Positions 113 to 5,447 of a stretch of 5,447 bases of DNA are shown in pieces. The stretch spans positions 1 through 5,447 of the forward strand of contig JAUUZB010000364.1 in the NCBI GenBank assembly GCA_030590185.1. The letters run 5' to 3'. Every line of letters begins with the position of its first letter. The first letter of the stretch is position 1. The notes below the pieces were generated by a model. That model ran no database searches. It was not told the origin of the DNA and was given only the letters and a program-made list of their open reading frames with translations. The stretch comes from Deltaproteobacteria bacterium. Its GTDB lineage: Bacteria; Myxococcota; XYA12-FULL-58-9; JAUUZB01. The translations under genes were made by a program, and so were the position numbers.

Positions 113-316
113 AGTCCCGCGTGGGGATGAGACGAGAGTCCCATGTGGGGCCGGAGCCGGGAAGTCCCACATGGAGGGCCGAAGCCGGGAAGTCCCATGT
201 GGGGCCGAAGCCGGGAAGTCCCACATGTGGGGCCGAAGCCGGGAAGTCCCACGTGGGGGGCCGAAGCCGGGAAGTCCCACGTGGGGGCCGAAGCCGGGAA
301 GTCCCATGTGGGGCCC
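113..316. repeat. Tandem array of about eight 24-28 bp palindrome-containing units
   Basis: AGTCCC recurs at 113, 137, 163, 191, 217, 245, 273 and 300, giving steps of 24, 26, 28, 26, 28, 28 and 27 bp. The fullest unit (217-244) reads AGTCCCACATGTGGGG then CCGAAGCCGGGA. The second half is almost invariant in the inner copies. Variation is concentrated in the centre, which is CCCATGTGGGG, CCCACATGTGGGG or CCCACGTGGGG. Perfect palindromes occur at 220-231 (CCCACATGTGGG), 248-257 and 276-285 (CCCACGTGGG). GGC-CGAA-GCC in each unit can form a small hairpin. The first and last copies are degenerate or partial, as usual at array edges. There are no unique spacers, so this is not CRISPR. It is a minisatellite, a multi-site operator, or an array of RNA hairpins. 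Confidence 0.85.
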
Positions 317-648: not shown

Positions 649-3078
649 ATGCCGCGTGGGAGTGCCGACAACCCGCCCATCCCATCCAAGGCCGTCCCCC
701 AGGCCAACAGCCTCGCGAAACTGCGACGGCTCGTCGAGCTCGTCGCGGCCGGGGTCACAGCCTCGCCTGAGCTCCAGCAAGGGATCGCGCTGTCGCCGCG
801 CCACCTGGGCTACTACCTCCTCGCCGCACAGACCCTCGATTGGGTTGCCACCGGCACTGAGTCGGTGAGGAGGGTGACAGATCTGATCGTCACGACGCGG
901 GGCCGCCGCTTGCTCGCCACGACGCAGGATAGCCTGGCCGAGGCCGTTGCGGTGGCCAACGCCATCGAGGACAGCGCAGGCATCCGCGGCGCCGTCGGCT
1001 CGTACCTCACCGAGTACGGAATCGGGGTTGATGATCTCGCAGGGCGCATCGCCCGCCGTGCCGGCCTGTCGCCGGCCACCGCGCACCGACGGGCCGGGTG
1101 CCTGGTCGCGTGGCGATCGCAGCTCGAGGCGCGGGGATGGCATTCTGACGCGCCGGGGGCCGAGCCCGTCGCCGACGCCGCCCCTGAGTCCGATCCGCCC
1201 GCCCCCGAGTCCGATCCGCCCGCCCTCGAGTCCGACCCGCCCGGCCCCGAGTCCGGCCCACCCGCCCCCGAGTCCGGCCCACCCGCCCCCGAGTCCGGCC
1301 CACGACCTTTTTTGTCGGAGCCCTCTGGTACTGAACACTCGTCCACCATGAAGAACCGTGTACACGAGCCTGGCCAGAGCACCCGCGAGAAGAGCGCAAA
1401 CGCGCCAGCCGGGCACGCGCCACCCAACGACGCCCCACCCGCCGACGCCCCACCCGCCGACGCCCCGCCCAGCGACGCCTCGCCCAGCGACGCCTCGCCC
1501 GCCAACCCCCCACCCAACGACGCCCAGCCCGCGCCGGTCATCCTCCAACCCCAACCAGCCTTCAAATACGTCACCGGCGACCACGCGCCGATCTACCGCG
1601 CCATCGTCCAAGTCTTCTTCGCCGCCAAACAGCGTTACGTCATCGAGCTGCGTCCCGCCGATGTCGAACGCGAAATCGTCGCCGGGGGCTTCCACGCCCC
1701 CCTCGCCGACACCGACGCACTCAACTACCACCTCGACAAGCTCGTGGAGTGGGGCAACCTCTCCGCCGCCCACGACACCGCCGCGGTCGCCACCATCGAG
1801 GATTTCCATAAAAAGAGCTTCGTCTACCACCTCACGGCTGTCGGCGAGGCAGCGCACCGCGCCGTTCTCCACGTCGAGGCCACCGTCGGTCGCTCGGGCT
1901 CCCTGCAATCCAACATGCTGCTGGAAATCCGGGACAGCCTGCGCGCCCTCGCCGCCCTCGGCCAGCAGGGGGCACCGGATCCAGAGCGCACCCTGCGCAG
2001 CATGCACGCCCTGTTCAGCGCCTTTGACACGCTCACCGGGGAGGCGGCGCACTTCATCGGCGAGGTCAGCGAGAGCTTCGCCGCCGACCGCATCGAGGAG
2101 GAGCTGTTCGTCCTGCGCAAGCAGGCGTTGGTCACCTACATCAGCCGTTTCGTCGACCACCTGCGCAAGCTAGCGGGGGAGATCGCCGCCGGCGTGCGAG
2201 CGGTGGAAGCGGGAGGCGTCGAACGATTGCTCGCGGCCGCCGCCACCTCGGCGGACCTTCCCCCTCCCCTCGGTCACGAGGACCCGCGCGCGGTTTGGCT
2301 CGACACGCAACGGCACCGCTGGGCCGGGATGAAGGGTTGGTTCTGCGCCGTTGGTGGCCTCGAGCCTACGGTGGAGCGGCTGGCCGCCGTTGCGGTGGAG
2401 GCGATCCTCGGGCTAACCCGGGCCCTCGGACGCCTCAACAGCCAGCGCACGCAGCCCGTCGATCGCCAGGCCGACTACCTCACCCTGGCGCGTTGGTTCA
2501 GCGCCTGCGGGACCAACCGCGAGGCGCACAAACTCTACGAGGCGGCCTTCGGTCTCTACGGCGTACGTCACTTCCACATCGCCGAGGAGGATCCCGACCT
2601 CGCCCGCCCGGGGGAGTCCTGGTGGCAAACGGCGCCGGTCACCGTGCCCACCTCCCTGCGTGCCCGGGGTAGGTTGAGCCGTGCCGGCCGACCCGCCGCC
2701 GCACCGGACCACGGGGCGGGCCGCGCTTGGATAGCCCAACGCCAGCGCCGCGAACGTGAGCAGCTCGCGAGCGCCCAGCGTCGGTTCGCGGGCAAGGGTG
2801 AGATGTGTTTGAGCGATCTGGCCGAGATCTCCAGCGCCGAGCTCGACCTGCTGCTCGCCCTGCTCGACGAGGCGCTCGCCTCGCCCCGCCGTGCCGACGG
2901 CAGCCGCATCACCCGCACCGCCGACGGGCGCCTCACGGTGGTCTTGAGGCCGCCGGACGACCCTGAGGCCTGGACAGAGCTGAGCACACCCCGGGGACGG
3001 CTGCGCTGCCGGGATTATCGCATCGAGGTTCGTGAGGGGGCCGGTACGCGGTCCGCCCCCAAGGAGGTCGCGTCGTGA
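649..3078 (+). CDS. jetA: JetA-like protein (TIGR02677/DUF2397), N-terminal domain fusion
   Basis: Predicted kleisin-like subunit of a type II Wadjet complex, 809 aa. The family body runs from about residue 304 to 797: FKYVTGDHAPIYRAIVQVFF at 305-324, then LVEWGNL (365-371), IEDFHKKSFVYHLT (383-396), GEAAHRA (399-405), GSLQSNMLLEIRDSLRAL (417-434) and ADYLTLARWF (608-617). These are what I expect of TIGR02677, which is normally about 500 aa. The extra 300 residues are a helical domain (about 20-163) with SPRHLGYYLLAAQTLDWV and TTRGRRLL, ending SPATAHRRAGCLVAW, similar to the winged-helix DUF7226-like module of some restriction enzymes, followed by a repetitive linker (165-300). ATG 649 is the first start after an in-frame stop at 631-633. 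It lacks a clear ribosome binding site. ATG 1348 (M234) is the main alternative start. The JetA body is well supported. The N-terminal family name is a weaker, by-eye match. Confidence 0.88.
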   Translation: MPRGSADNPPIPSKAVPQANSLAKLRRLVELVAAGVTASPELQQGIALSPRHLGYYLLAAQTLDWVATGTESVRRVTDLIVTTRGRRLLATTQDSLAEAVAVANAIEDSAGIRGAVGSYLTEYGIGVDDLAGRIARRAGLSPATAHRRAGCLVAWRSQLEARGWHSDAPGAEPVADAAPESDPPAPESDPPALESDPPGPESGPPAPESGPPAPESGPRPFLSEPSGTEHSSTMKNRVHEPGQSTREKSANAPAGHAPPNDAPPADAPPADAPPSDASPSDASPANPPPNDAQPAPVILQPQPAFKYVTGDHAPIYRAIVQVFFAAKQRYVIELRPADVEREIVAGGFHAPLADTDALNYHLDKLVEWGNLSAAHDTAAVATIEDFHKKSFVYHLTAVGEAAHRAVLHVEATVGRSGSLQSNMLLEIRDSLRALAALGQQGAPDPERTLRSMHALFSAFDTLTGEAAHFIGEVSESFAADRIEEELFVLRKQALVTYISRFVDHLRKLAGEIAAGVRAVEAGGVERLLAAAATSADLPPPLGHEDPRAVWLDTQRHRWAGMKGWFCAVGGLEPTVERLAAVAVEAILGLTRALGRLNSQRTQPVDRQADYLTLARWFSACGTNREAHKLYEAAFGLYGVRHFHIAEEDPDLARPGESWWQTAPVTVPTSLRARGRLSRAGRPAAAPDHGAGRAWIAQRQRREREQLASAQRRFAGKGEMCLSDLAEISSAELDLLLALLDEALASPRRADGSRITRTADGRLTVVLRPPDDPEAWTELSTPRGRLRCRDYRIEVREGAGTRSAPKEVAS
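1183..1302 (+). repeat. 21-bp tandem repeat encoding PESDPPA-type heptads
   Basis: Six in-frame units, the last incomplete, encode a seven-residue period at residues 179-218 of JetA: PESDPPA twice, LESDPPG, PESGPPA twice, PESGP. The first three carry Asp and the last three Gly at the fourth position, suggesting stepwise expansion of two subtypes. The result is a Pro-rich, acidic, presumably extended linker between the N-terminal domain and the JetA body. Confidence 0.85.
1308..1351 (+). other. T6 run and internal ATGA stop/start overlap in the jetA linker
   Basis: T6 at 1308-1313 (codons CCT TTT TTG) is the longest homopolymer of A or T I noticed in this GC-rich window. Reading one base forward after it leads to TGA at 1349-1351, which overlaps the in-frame jetA ATG at 1348-1350 as ATGA. 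Reading one base back leads to TGA at 1332-1334. The layout resembles two overlapping, translationally coupled genes merged by a single-base change, or a slippage site that releases the N-terminal domain. As given, the frame is intact through the site. No good ribosome binding site precedes 1348. Confidence 0.45.
1414..1533 (+). repeat. 15-bp tandem repeat encoding DAPPA/DASPS pentads
   Basis: Eight in-frame pentads cover JetA residues 256-295: HAPPN, DAPPA twice, DAPPS, DASPS, DASPA, NPPPN, DAQPA. The sequence and period are unrelated to the 21-bp repeat upstream, so the linker expanded twice independently. It ends just before the TIGR02677-like body begins. Confidence 0.85.
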
Positions 3079-3103
3079 GCTCCCTCGGCATTCGGCTCGA
3101 AAC
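3049..3103 (+). repeat. Direct repeat, copy 1 (jetA end / jetB-like start)
   Basis: Copy 1 of a duplicated gene junction. It matches 3144-3198 at a 95-bp offset with five mismatches in 55 bases (3058, 3060, 3063, 3068, 3095) and an identical 26-bp core (3069-3094). It covers the last JetA codons (RSAPKEVAS), the AAGGAGG site, the jetA stop, and a GTG followed by codons for SSLGIRLET, the same start as JetB. Confidence 0.93.
3061..3067 (+). promoter_or_regulatory. Ribosome binding site AAGGAGG for the 32-codon ORF
   Basis: A consensus Shine-Dalgarno sequence lies 7 bases before GTG 3075, inside the jetA coding end. It is the best-matching site in the window and serves the first copy of the duplicated start, not the true jetB start. 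Confidence 0.75.
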
Positions 3104-3173
3104 GAACGCTGGCGCCGCCCGGTCCGCCGCCCGGTCCGCCGCCCGGTCCGCCGCAAAAGAGGCCGCGTCGTGA
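3075..3173 (+). CDS. 32-codon ORF created by the junction duplication
   Basis: GTG 3075 overlaps the jetA stop (GTGA, 3075-3078), and the ORF's own TGA (3171-3173) overlaps the jetB GTG (GTGA, 3170-3173). The peptide starts MSSLGIRLET, identical to the JetB N-terminus. It continues through three RSAA units and ends KEAAS, a near copy of the JetA C-terminus KEVAS. Because the duplication offset is 95 bp (3n+2), the first start reads exactly to the copied jetA stop. It has the strongest ribosome binding site here. It may be translated as a coupling peptide that relays ribosomes from jetA to jetB, or be only a scar. No independent function is suggested by its composition. Confidence 0.5.
   Translation: MSSLGIRLETNAGAARSAARSAARSAAKEAAS
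3120..3155 (+). repeat. Three 12-bp units CGGTCCGCCGCC
   Basis: Tandem copies at 3120-3131, 3132-3143 and 3144-3155 (last base A) encode RSAA three times in the small ORF. A related CGGTCCGCC lies at the JetA C-terminus (3049-3057), which marks the edge of the 95-bp duplication and suggests slippage or unequal exchange at this motif. Confidence 0.85.
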
Positions 3174-3198
3174 GCTCCCTCGGCATTCGCCTCGAAAC
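3144..3198 (+). repeat. Direct repeat, copy 2 (true jetB start)
   Basis: Copy 2 of the duplicated junction, carrying the functional jetB GTG at 3170. Relative to copy 1 the Shine-Dalgarno is changed from AAGGAGG to AAGAGG, and CGG is changed to CGC, synonymous for Arg, at 3188-3190. Confidence 0.93.
3155..3162 (+). promoter_or_regulatory. Ribosome binding site AAAAGAGG for jetB
   Basis: A purine-rich site 7 bases before GTG 3170, weaker than the AAGGAGG of the first junction copy by one base. It supports GTG 3170 as the jetB start. Confidence 0.6.
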
Positions 3199-4363
3199 CA
3201 CCAATCGCGCCGAGCGCACCCGCGCCCTACGCGGACTGTGGGCGCGGCCACTGATCACGTCCGACACCGACCCCGACCTCTTCGGGCTCGTAGTGCGCCA
3301 CCGTGCCTGGCTATCCGCCTGGCTCGCCGACAACCCCGGCCTCAAGCTCGTCGTCCAACCCCAGGCCGGCTTCGCGCGCCTACACCAAATCCCCGCCTGC
3401 CCGCGGGGCACGCACCCCGCCGAGGTCCGCGGCCGAACCTTCGACCGCCGCCGCTATGTCCTACTTTGCCTCACCCTCGCCGCCCTCGACCGCTCGGGCC
3501 GCAAGCAAACCACCCTGTCCAACCTGGCCAAAATCGTCGAAGAGCTCAGCCGTGACACGCCAGACTGCGAGCGCTTCGACTCCACCCGGTTCGCGGAGCG
3601 GCGGGCCTTTGTCGATGTCCTGCGCTGGCTCGTCGCGAGGTCCGTGCTCCAGCTTCGCGACGGCGACGCCGAACGCTACACAAAGGACCGCGACGGCGAC
3701 GCGCTCTACGACGTCGCCGAGCACCTGCTCGGTCAGCTCATCGCCTCTCCGGTTCCCCCCTCCCTCGCCGAAGAGCCCAGCCGCCTCCTCGAGGAGCAGT
3801 ACCCGGCCACCGAGGAGGGCGAACGGCTCCGCGCTCGCCACCAGGCCCTGCGCCAAATCTGCGAAGACCCGGTGGTCTACTTCGAGGCGCTCACCCCGCG
3901 GGCCGCCGACTGGGTCGACCACGGCCGGGGGTTCATCTACCGGCTCGTCGAGGAAGATCTCGGCATGCAGGTGGAGCGCCGGCGCGAGGGTCTCGCCGCC
4001 GTCGATCCCGCCGGGGAGCTCACCGACACGCGATTCCCCGACGCCGGCTCCACCGTCAAGCACGCCGCGCTCCTCTTGGCCGAACAGCTCACCGAGCACC
4101 GGCGGCTGCATGGCGACGGGGCGGTGCCACACGCCTGGATCGTCGAGCGCATCGAGCTGCTCGCGGAGGCGTACGGCGAACCTTGCGCCTGGAGCAAGCG
4201 CTTCGGCGGCGCCGACGGCGACGCCCGCCTCACCGACGAGGTGCTCACGCTGCTCGAAGCCTTCCGACTCGTGGAGGTCACGCCAGAGGGCGTCGTACCG
4301 TTACCGGCCATCGCGCGCTTCGCTCCGGCGGCGCCCGCGCCTGCGTCCGCCAAGGGAGACTGA
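3170..4363 (+). CDS. jetB: JetB-like protein (TIGR02678/DUF2398), type II Wadjet
   Basis: Predicted KITE-like subunit that would bind the JetA kleisin and JetC ATPase; 397 aa, close to my expectation for TIGR02678. Family features seen: an N-terminal helical segment with LRGLWARPLITSDTD (20-34), FDRRRYVLLCLTLAALDRSG (91-110), TTLSNLAKIV (114-123), GDALYDV (176-182), CEDPVVYFEAL (231-241), and the typical VERRREGLAAVDPAGELTD (268-286) followed by FPDAGSTVKHAALLLAEQL (289-307). The GTG start is chosen because SSLGIRLE looks like a native N-terminus, a ribosome binding site precedes it, and the frame upstream (open from 3032) gives only Arg/Pro-rich shadow sequence overlapping jetA. The stop touches the jetC start with no gap. 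The KITE role is inferred from the equivalent Wadjet subunit of type I. Confidence 0.92.
   Translation: MSSLGIRLETTNRAERTRALRGLWARPLITSDTDPDLFGLVVRHRAWLSAWLADNPGLKLVVQPQAGFARLHQIPACPRGTHPAEVRGRTFDRRRYVLLCLTLAALDRSGRKQTTLSNLAKIVEELSRDTPDCERFDSTRFAERRAFVDVLRWLVARSVLQLRDGDAERYTKDRDGDALYDVAEHLLGQLIASPVPPSLAEEPSRLLEEQYPATEEGERLRARHQALRQICEDPVVYFEALTPRAADWVDHGRGFIYRLVEEDLGMQVERRREGLAAVDPAGELTDTRFPDAGSTVKHAALLLAEQLTEHRRLHGDGAVPHAWIVERIELLAEAYGEPCAWSKRFGGADGDARLTDEVLTLLEAFRLVEVTPEGVVPLPAIARFAPAAPAPASAKGD
4352..4358 (+). promoter_or_regulatory. Ribosome binding site AAGGGAG for jetC
   Basis: AAGGGAG lies 5 bases before ATG 4364, inside the end of jetB. With the TGA-ATG abutment it indicates translational coupling of jetB and jetC. 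Confidence 0.65.
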
Positions 4364-5447
4364 ATGCAAATCGTACCGACCATCGCCAAGATGCCCGACC
4401 CGGACACAGAGCGCTGGCAACCCCTGCGGGCCGGCATTCAAAACCTCTGGGAGTACGACGACCAACGCTTCGTCTTCCACGGCGGCCGGCTCCTGCTGCG
4501 CGGCCGCAACGAGTCCGGCAAAACCAAAGCCATCGAGGTTCTGCTGCCCTTCCTGTTCGACGCCGACCTGTCGCCCCAGCGGCTCGATCCCTTTGGCACC
4601 ACGTCGCGGCCCATGCGTTGGAACCTGCTCAACGACGCCAACCCCGACGTCAACCTCGCTGTCGGTTACGTCTGGCTCGAGCTCGGGCGGCGCGACGGCG
4701 ATCGCACGCGTACGCTCACCCTCGGCGCCGGGCTCAGGGCCAAGCGCAACACCAACGCCGTGGAGTCGTGGTACTTCATCAGCGAGCAACGCATCGACGC
4801 CGAGCTCGATCTCCTCGGCCGCGGCCGGGTGCCCTTGACCCGCGGTCAGCTCGAAGAGGCGATCGGCGCCGCCGGCAACGTGTTCACCAGGGGCCAGGAC
4901 TACCGGCGCGCGGTCAATGCGCGCCTCTTCGACCTGCCGGAGGATCAATACCGCGCCCTGGTGGAAACCCTGTTGCAGCTACGTCGCCCGCAGCTCTCCA
5001 AAACCCTCGACCCCGCCGGTCTCTCCGAAATCCTGGCGGTGAGCCTGCCGCCACTGGACCGCGGCGTGTTGTTGCCCCTCGCCGACGGCTTCGAGCGACT
5101 CGACTCGGACCGCAGAACCCGCGAGATGTATGTCACCACCACCGTCGCCGTCGACCGCTTCGTCGGCCTCTACCGCCGCTACGCGGCCGCCTGCGCCAAG
5201 GCTCGAACCAAAGAGCTCACCACCGCCGACAGCGCCCACAAAAGCGCCCGCGCGGATTTGCGACAGCGTGAGACCGCCCTGGATGTGGCTTCCTCGCGTA
5301 AAGCGGAGCTCGCTGAGCGTGCCCAACAACAACGCGCCGAGCTCGAGGCCCTCGATGTACGACTCGAGGTCCTCAAAACCTCCGATGCTTATCTCGGCGC
5401 CCGGGAGATCGATGAAGCGGAGCGGCAGGCTAGGAGCGCGGGAGCAC
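4364..5447 (+). CDS. jetC: JetC-like SMC ATPase (TIGR02680), 5' part
   Basis: N-terminal 361 residues of the SMC-like motor; the frame stays open to the window end. TIGR02680 proteins are usually well over 1,000 aa, so most of the coiled coil, the hinge-like part and the C-terminal ATPase half lie outside. Seen: RWQPLRAGIQNLWEYDD (17-33), GGRLLLRGRNESGKTKAIE (40-58) with the Walker A motif GRNESGKT at 47-54, LLPFLFDADLSPQRLDPFG (60-78), GYVWLELGR (101-109), VFTRGQDYR (173-181), and LLQLRRPQLSKTLDP (203-217). Charged helical sequence from about residue 275 looks like the start of the coiled coil. ATP binding by the dimerised heads drives DNA loop extrusion in known Wadjet complexes. The start is ATG 4364, preceded by AAGGGAG. 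It shares jetB's reading frame, separated only by one TGA. Confidence 0.93.
   Translation, partial: MQIVPTIAKMPDPDTERWQPLRAGIQNLWEYDDQRFVFHGGRLLLRGRNESGKTKAIEVLLPFLFDADLSPQRLDPFGTTSRPMRWNLLNDANPDVNLAVGYVWLELGRRDGDRTRTLTLGAGLRAKRNTNAVESWYFISEQRIDAELDLLGRGRVPLTRGQLEEAIGAAGNVFTRGQDYRRAVNARLFDLPEDQYRALVETLLQLRRPQLSKTLDPAGLSEILAVSLPPLDRGVLLPLADGFERLDSDRRTREMYVTTTVAVDRFVGLYRRYAAACAKARTKELTTADSAHKSARADLRQRETALDVASSRKAELAERAQQQRAELEALDVRLEVLKTSDAYLGAREIDEAERQARSAGA

Follow-up and report, generated by a model that had tools for sequence, protein, structure and literature searches.

The closest described system is the type II Wadjet (JetABCD-II) of Neobacillus vireti (PDB 9qe0/9qe1). In the accessible part of the report on it, the complex is a dimer with one JetA per motor and JetA was expressed with an N-terminal tag. 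Cleavage is described there as sequence-non-specific, and the choice of plasmids and the sparing of the chromosome are explained by the sensing of DNA size and shape (PMC12647877). Wadjet is usually thought to be sequence-blind. Here we analysed a stretch of 5,447 nucleotides from a Deltaproteobacteria bacterium (contig JAUUZB010000364.1; the window), in which the kleisin JetA of a type II Wadjet operon carries an additional N-terminal module on a long linker. By their matches to type II models, the JetA body, JetB and the first part of JetC agree with N. vireti, whereas the solved N. vireti JetA chain (500 aa) has neither the N-terminal domain nor the linker. The locus is a new architectural variant of Wadjet type II, one that may select the DNA, or the place, at which it acts.

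The N-terminal module of JetA

The features of jetA are given below. Invariant residues are read from A4, an alignment of ten rows (JetA, P0003, Pantoea, Curtobacterium and DUF7226 proteins) in which the Pantoea and Curtobacterium rows are weak plasmid matches.

649..3078, + strand: jetA, 809 aa, type II Wadjet kleisin with an N-terminal fusion
697..708, + strand: P-Q-A-N motif, residues 17-20; P17, Q18 and A19 invariant
700..1131, + strand: double helix-turn-helix (HTH) module, residues ~18-161; remote DUF7226 relative with a predicted FokI/SspB-like fold
796..834, + strand: third helix of the first, winged HTH, residues 50-62; R51, Y55 and Y56 invariant; presumed recognition helix
1072..1131, + strand: last helix of the second HTH, residues 142-161; T144, R147, R148 and W155 invariant; presumed recognition helix
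1141..1554, + strand: Pro/Ala/Ser-rich, probably disordered linker, residues 165-302, with 21-bp and 15/30-bp tandem repeats in part of it
1555..3039, + strand: JetA body, ordinary kleisin (DUF2397/TIGR02677), residues 303-797

None of the JetA models listed begins upstream of residue 300 of the 809-aa protein. DUF2397 covers residues 305-791 (Pfam, E 8.9e-141) and TIGR02677 residues 304-797 (NCBIfam, E 5.6e-112), both over their cut-offs, and the best PADLOC JetA2 model covers residues 302-801 (E 6.5e-143). An earlier, sequence-only reading of the window had described a type II Wadjet operon with an oversized, fused JetA whose body starts near residue 304, and both statements agree with the 809-aa open reading frame (ORF), with models that start at residues 302-305 and with the PADLOC type II class. 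The extra domain that it had placed at bases ~706-1137 is real and ordered, but its measured boundaries are ~700-1131.

In the structure prediction, the module was ordered from about residue 18-21 to residue 161, with a predicted local distance difference test score (pLDDT) above 90 in most 10-residue blocks, whether the module was modelled by itself or as part of the full-length protein. For residues 169-301 the pLDDT was below 50 at nearly every position. The body of the predicted model, residues 300-798, aligned with residues 6-495 of the solved N. vireti JetA. Residues 20-163 do not fold within the ordinary TIGR02677 domain: the structure alignment of the body, together with the pLDDT gap, ruled out the module as a part of the JetA fold. 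The models indicate a separate domain on a variable, probably disordered linker, which has 136 residues here vs 84-118 in three other long JetA proteins. The tandem repeats of the linker (21-bp and 15/30-bp units, at window positions 1178-1301 and 1415-1532) are all multiples of three, therefore the linker length may vary between strains.

Long open frames upstream of genes are given by GC-rich genomes, for example 391 open codons upstream of the JetA match at locus L029. The extension might then be untranslated GC-rich DNA that is open by chance, with JetA starting near residue 300. We give this hardly any credence, however, because three other JetA share the constrained domain, the fold is confident, and the G+C content by codon position is of a coding type (0.72/0.57/0.84 in the N-terminal domain and 0.73/0.51/0.86 in the body). 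It resembles that of the body and differs from that of the upstream DNA (0.73/0.69/0.69 for bases 1-648 in the same frame). A chance in-frame extension was ruled out by the conservation of the domain in the other three proteins.

Distribution and history among JetA proteins

The search with the JetA body returned 157 proteins, and the N-terminal offsets were measured on the 120 listed. The offset is 241-301 residues in four of these (P0001, which is the window's own JetA, P0002, P0005 and P0006) and at most 93 in the remaining 116. All four long JetA contain the same domain, although P0006 starts inside the module and is probably incomplete. P0101, with an apparent offset of 93 residues, has a short N-terminus and inner repeats, and we attribute this offset to the alignment. 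Residues 1-170 as the query found P0001, P0002 (783 aa, TIGR02677) and P0003/P0004 (829 aa, not JetA). It missed P0005 and P0006, which came from the body search only; the protein searches are incomplete.

None of the 40 actinobacterial JetA loci had the module in its JetA open frame, and a six-frame reading of the fetched DNA showed none either (39 loci are informative, as L019 ends 24 codons upstream of the match). For the relatives seen, these counts (4/120 listed, 0/40 actinobacterial loci) rule out the extension as a common family feature. The architecture is non-standard, as had been supposed: 116 of the 120 near relatives listed lack the linker-tethered domain, and it is not the case that most family members carry it. 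A quick tree was made of 124 JetA bodies (the 120 listed relatives and 4 actinobacterial JetA), and in it the four long JetA formed one side of a branch of length 0.38 with a support of 100 in the Shimodaira-Hasegawa-like approximate likelihood ratio test (SH-aLRT). Among the matches listed, the few nearest module-less JetA bearing names belong to Myxococcaceae, Anaeromyxobacteraceae, Deltaproteobacteria and Thermodesulfobacteriota, so the window probably comes from a myxobacterium-like organism. Among the JetA examined, the module is restricted to one clade, and it is also found on an unrelated protein. The extension looks like a single acquisition that has been kept for a substantial time, and not like a family trait.

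Over the six pairs of long JetA, the identity is 55-72% in the N-terminal domain, 16-42% with many gaps in the linker and 71-89% in the body. The N-terminal domain diverges faster than the body (55-60% vs 74-77% identity to P0001), which would suit a degraded recognition domain that now makes a protein contact or has no role at all. This is improbable, since all four proteins of the clade retain the module, with invariant HTH residues that DNA-reading relatives have too, while the linker drifted to 24-29% identity.

Kinship with DUF7226

Residues 28-155 match positions 5-133 of the 142 positions of the PF23871 (DUF7226) profile with E 0.076-0.085 and 13.2-13.3 bits, under the cut-off of 27. 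PF23871 was found at E<=1 in 3 of 6 relatives, with a best value of 3.1e-4. When the module alignment A2 was compared by hhalign with A3, an alignment of eight DUF7226 domains, the probability was 96.4% with E 1.1e-9 over 140 columns and a score of 61.6. As controls, 100 column shuffles of A3 scored no higher than 14.3, and reversed A3 scored 12.1. The two families appear collinear over the 140 profile columns and have the PQA, R..YY and T..RR...W pattern in common; P17, Q18, A19, R51, Y55, Y56, L63, G85, T144, R147, R148 and W155 are invariant over all rows of A4. They differ in position, as DUF7226, in the places opened, is C-terminal on a nuclease-like protein and the module is N-terminal on a kleisin. 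These profile comparisons make the module a remote relative of DUF7226, but we do not file it as a member because it missed the Pfam cut-off. The initial guess of a DUF7226-like domain thus holds for homology (hhalign) and fails for membership (13 bits vs 27).

In genomes, PF23871 was found in 0/4 and then in 2/149, with one match over the cut-off. One DUF7226 protein of an actinobacterial genome has 432 aa and adjoins an ORF that reads like an adenine methylase. The tblastn search with its DUF7226 domain gave 23 plasmid records, seven of which were opened. In six of these seven places DUF7226 forms the C-terminal end of a protein of 423-435 aa whose neighbour is annotated as a DNA adenine methylase; in the seventh (Crinalium) the neighbours are a hypothetical gene and a MoxR-type ATPase. 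From the neighbouring methylase, the DUF7226 proteins are putative restriction endonucleases. Our literature search returned no mention of DUF7226.

Fold neighbours of the module

The module is predicted to be a tandem HTH fold over its full length, similar to the DNA-recognition domains of FokI and SspB. Among the 50 fold matches listed, the seven best are all SspB, FokI or Nt.BspD6I, with 137-157 residues aligned, and the other 43 align over 63-100 residues. No sequence similarity of the module to the FokI recognition domain, SspB or Nt.BspD6I was detected, and neither FokI nor SspB was listed when profiles A2, A3 and A4 were compared with PDB sequences. Unlike the FokI and Nt.BspD6I group, the module has no nuclease or nickase part attached. 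Q18 was considered, from the alignment range alone, beside a glutamine with which FokI presumably contacts DNA; we do not claim this correspondence.

In the accessible parts of the literature, such modules are proposed to recognise the target in FokI, SspB, DndG and BrxA-like proteins, and BrxA is shown to bind double-stranded DNA (dsDNA) (PMC10853773, PMC12839542, PMC9240713). The literature also groups DndG, BrxA and BpuJI with the FokI-type recognition modules. As far as these sources describe it, the FokI/SspB-type module is a triple winged HTH, whereas ours has two HTH units. BrxA and DndG are not in the 50 fold matches listed, which says nothing against kinship.

We consider it likely that the module binds dsDNA because its homologues are domains of putative restriction enzymes, its neighbours by fold serve in recognition, and both HTH helices contain invariant residues. 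A DNA- or partner-sensing role had been suggested from the sequence; the reading of dsDNA is now favoured, and partner-sensing is less likely given the fold neighbours.

Module relatives outside JetA

The metagenomic proteins P0003/P0004 have the same N-terminal module, with 48% identity over 90% of residues 1-170, but they are not kleisins. In P0003 the module is followed by two stretches similar to the RNA polymerase alpha C-terminal domain (alpha-CTD), a helix-hairpin-helix (HhH) motif, a sigma region 4-like HTH and then a C-terminal part. A profile search of proteins of ~140-450 residues had P0124 (201 aa, alpha-CTD family) as its one match, probably a piece of a P0003-like protein.

Plasmids gave two weak matches, both with the PQAN motif, in Curtobacterium (E 0.06) and Pantoea (E 0.07). 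The Pantoea plasmid protein (L049, 4152-5450) is annotated DUF6575, and the Curtobacterium protein (L050, 3848-4612) has 254 aa. These PQAN-type relatives suggest a wider, poorly annotated superfamily. A2 gave six weak matches in 396 Actinomycetota genomes (best E 1e-3), and none of the six was counted as a carrier (ORFs were listed at L043 only, and a long one there resembles a ClpB-type ATPase), which is no proof of absence. Among phages there was one weak partial match to the module. The search of IMG/VR with full-length JetA gave 12 candidate stretches, none of them with the module; nothing was significant in the viral fold library (best E 0.12), PHROGs had nothing below E 0.078 and PADLOC had nothing at E<=1 for residues 1-170.

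Proposed function

JetA of this type II Wadjet would have gained, apparently once, a double-HTH module akin to the DUF7226 domain of putative restriction endonucleases. The module would bind dsDNA and favour a particular sequence or modification. Since type II Wadjet is a dimer in which every motor has one JetA, a complex would then have two leashed readers. The readers would most likely load the motor, or hold it, where the preferred site or mark is present, and such a molecule would have a raised chance of extrusion and of cutting by JetD. From there on, extrusion and cutting would proceed as in ordinary Wadjet. We put the probability that the module anchors the motor to DNA of a particular sequence or modification, or steers it there, at roughly 50%, the targeting step being conjecture. 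That it might set target recognition or regulate loading, as the sequence-only reading had proposed, is plausible.

The module might also be just an additional DNA tether, through which the motor would have a higher affinity or processivity whatever the DNA. The long disordered linker would suit such an anchor, the accessible literature gives no known sequence dependence of Wadjet, and in the sources at hand BrxA, a structural cousin, is shown only to bind dsDNA. We regard a non-specific anchor as rather unlikely, however, since the invariant polar and aromatic residues, common with DUF7226 of putative restriction enzymes, suggest base reading.

Between the four JetA and P0003/P0004, the presumed recognition helices have been conserved, which points to a DNA target that is shared and stable and does not diversify. 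Target domains in a classical arms race behave differently; regulation, or the reading of a host mark, would be in line with such a target as well. A module that binds an operator upstream of jetA could repress or sense the operon, and the action of Wadjet would stay sequence-blind. In addition to the conserved helices, which suit a fixed target, two observations are in line with such autoregulation. One is similarity of a single HTH to transcription-factor families: HTH_IclR matched as well as PF23871 in the single-sequence scans (4 of 6, best E 6.1e-4), in the window protein at residues 133-155, the second HTH only. The other is a palindromic CCCAYRTGGG array with 26-28-bp steps, 336-535 bp upstream of jetA. 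The array occupies window positions 114-313. The window has 9 matches to this unit (<=1 mismatch) vs 0.77 expected, and the largest number in 200 shuffles was 3. The spacer is constant, of the GCCGAAGCCGGGAAGT type. The 20-mer GCCGAAGCCGGGAAGTCCCA from the array had no exact match in IMG/VR and the array had no match in PLSDB. The array is possibly an operator or a genomic repeat. However, it lies far from the start codon, it is known here from the DNA of the window alone among the four long JetA, and the fold of the module matches defence nucleases better than repressors. We consider autoregulation a minor possibility.

The targeting of the motor by the module could, tentatively, be taken further into a hybrid of restriction-modification and SMC (structural maintenance of chromosomes) logic. 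A restriction-enzyme-type reader, two per motor dimer, would load or license the loop extruder where a particular sequence or modification is present (or absent), and a sequence-coded decision between self and non-self would be made besides the sensing of size and circularity. If targeting is true, the recognition fold of FokI, SspB, DndG and BrxA has been added to an SMC motor, and the locus is a natural test of whether sequence can steer SMC defence complexes. Placed at the tip of a long linker, the module is cleanly removable, so the question is directly testable.

The remaining genes of the locus

Two more genes follow jetA in the window.

3170..4363, + strand: jetB (DUF2398/TIGR02678), GTG start by frame and by a PADLOC match from residue 2
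4364..5447, + strand: jetC (TIGR02680), approximately the first quarter, as the window end cuts the gene

JetB adjoins JetA and matches DUF2398 (E 2.1e-100) and TIGR02678 (E 6.1e-74), both above the cut-offs. JetC matches positions 1-344 of the 1356 of TIGR02680 with E 1.4e-109. Its 367.7 bits are below the whole-protein cut-off of 462.85 because the window end cuts the gene. PADLOC classed JetA, JetB and the JetC start as type II, and this class rests on JetA, JetB and the partial JetC, with jetD, if present, beyond the window. A 95-bp tandem duplication with 78% identical copies (window 3038-3227) lies at the jetA/jetB junction and repeats the start of jetB out of frame.
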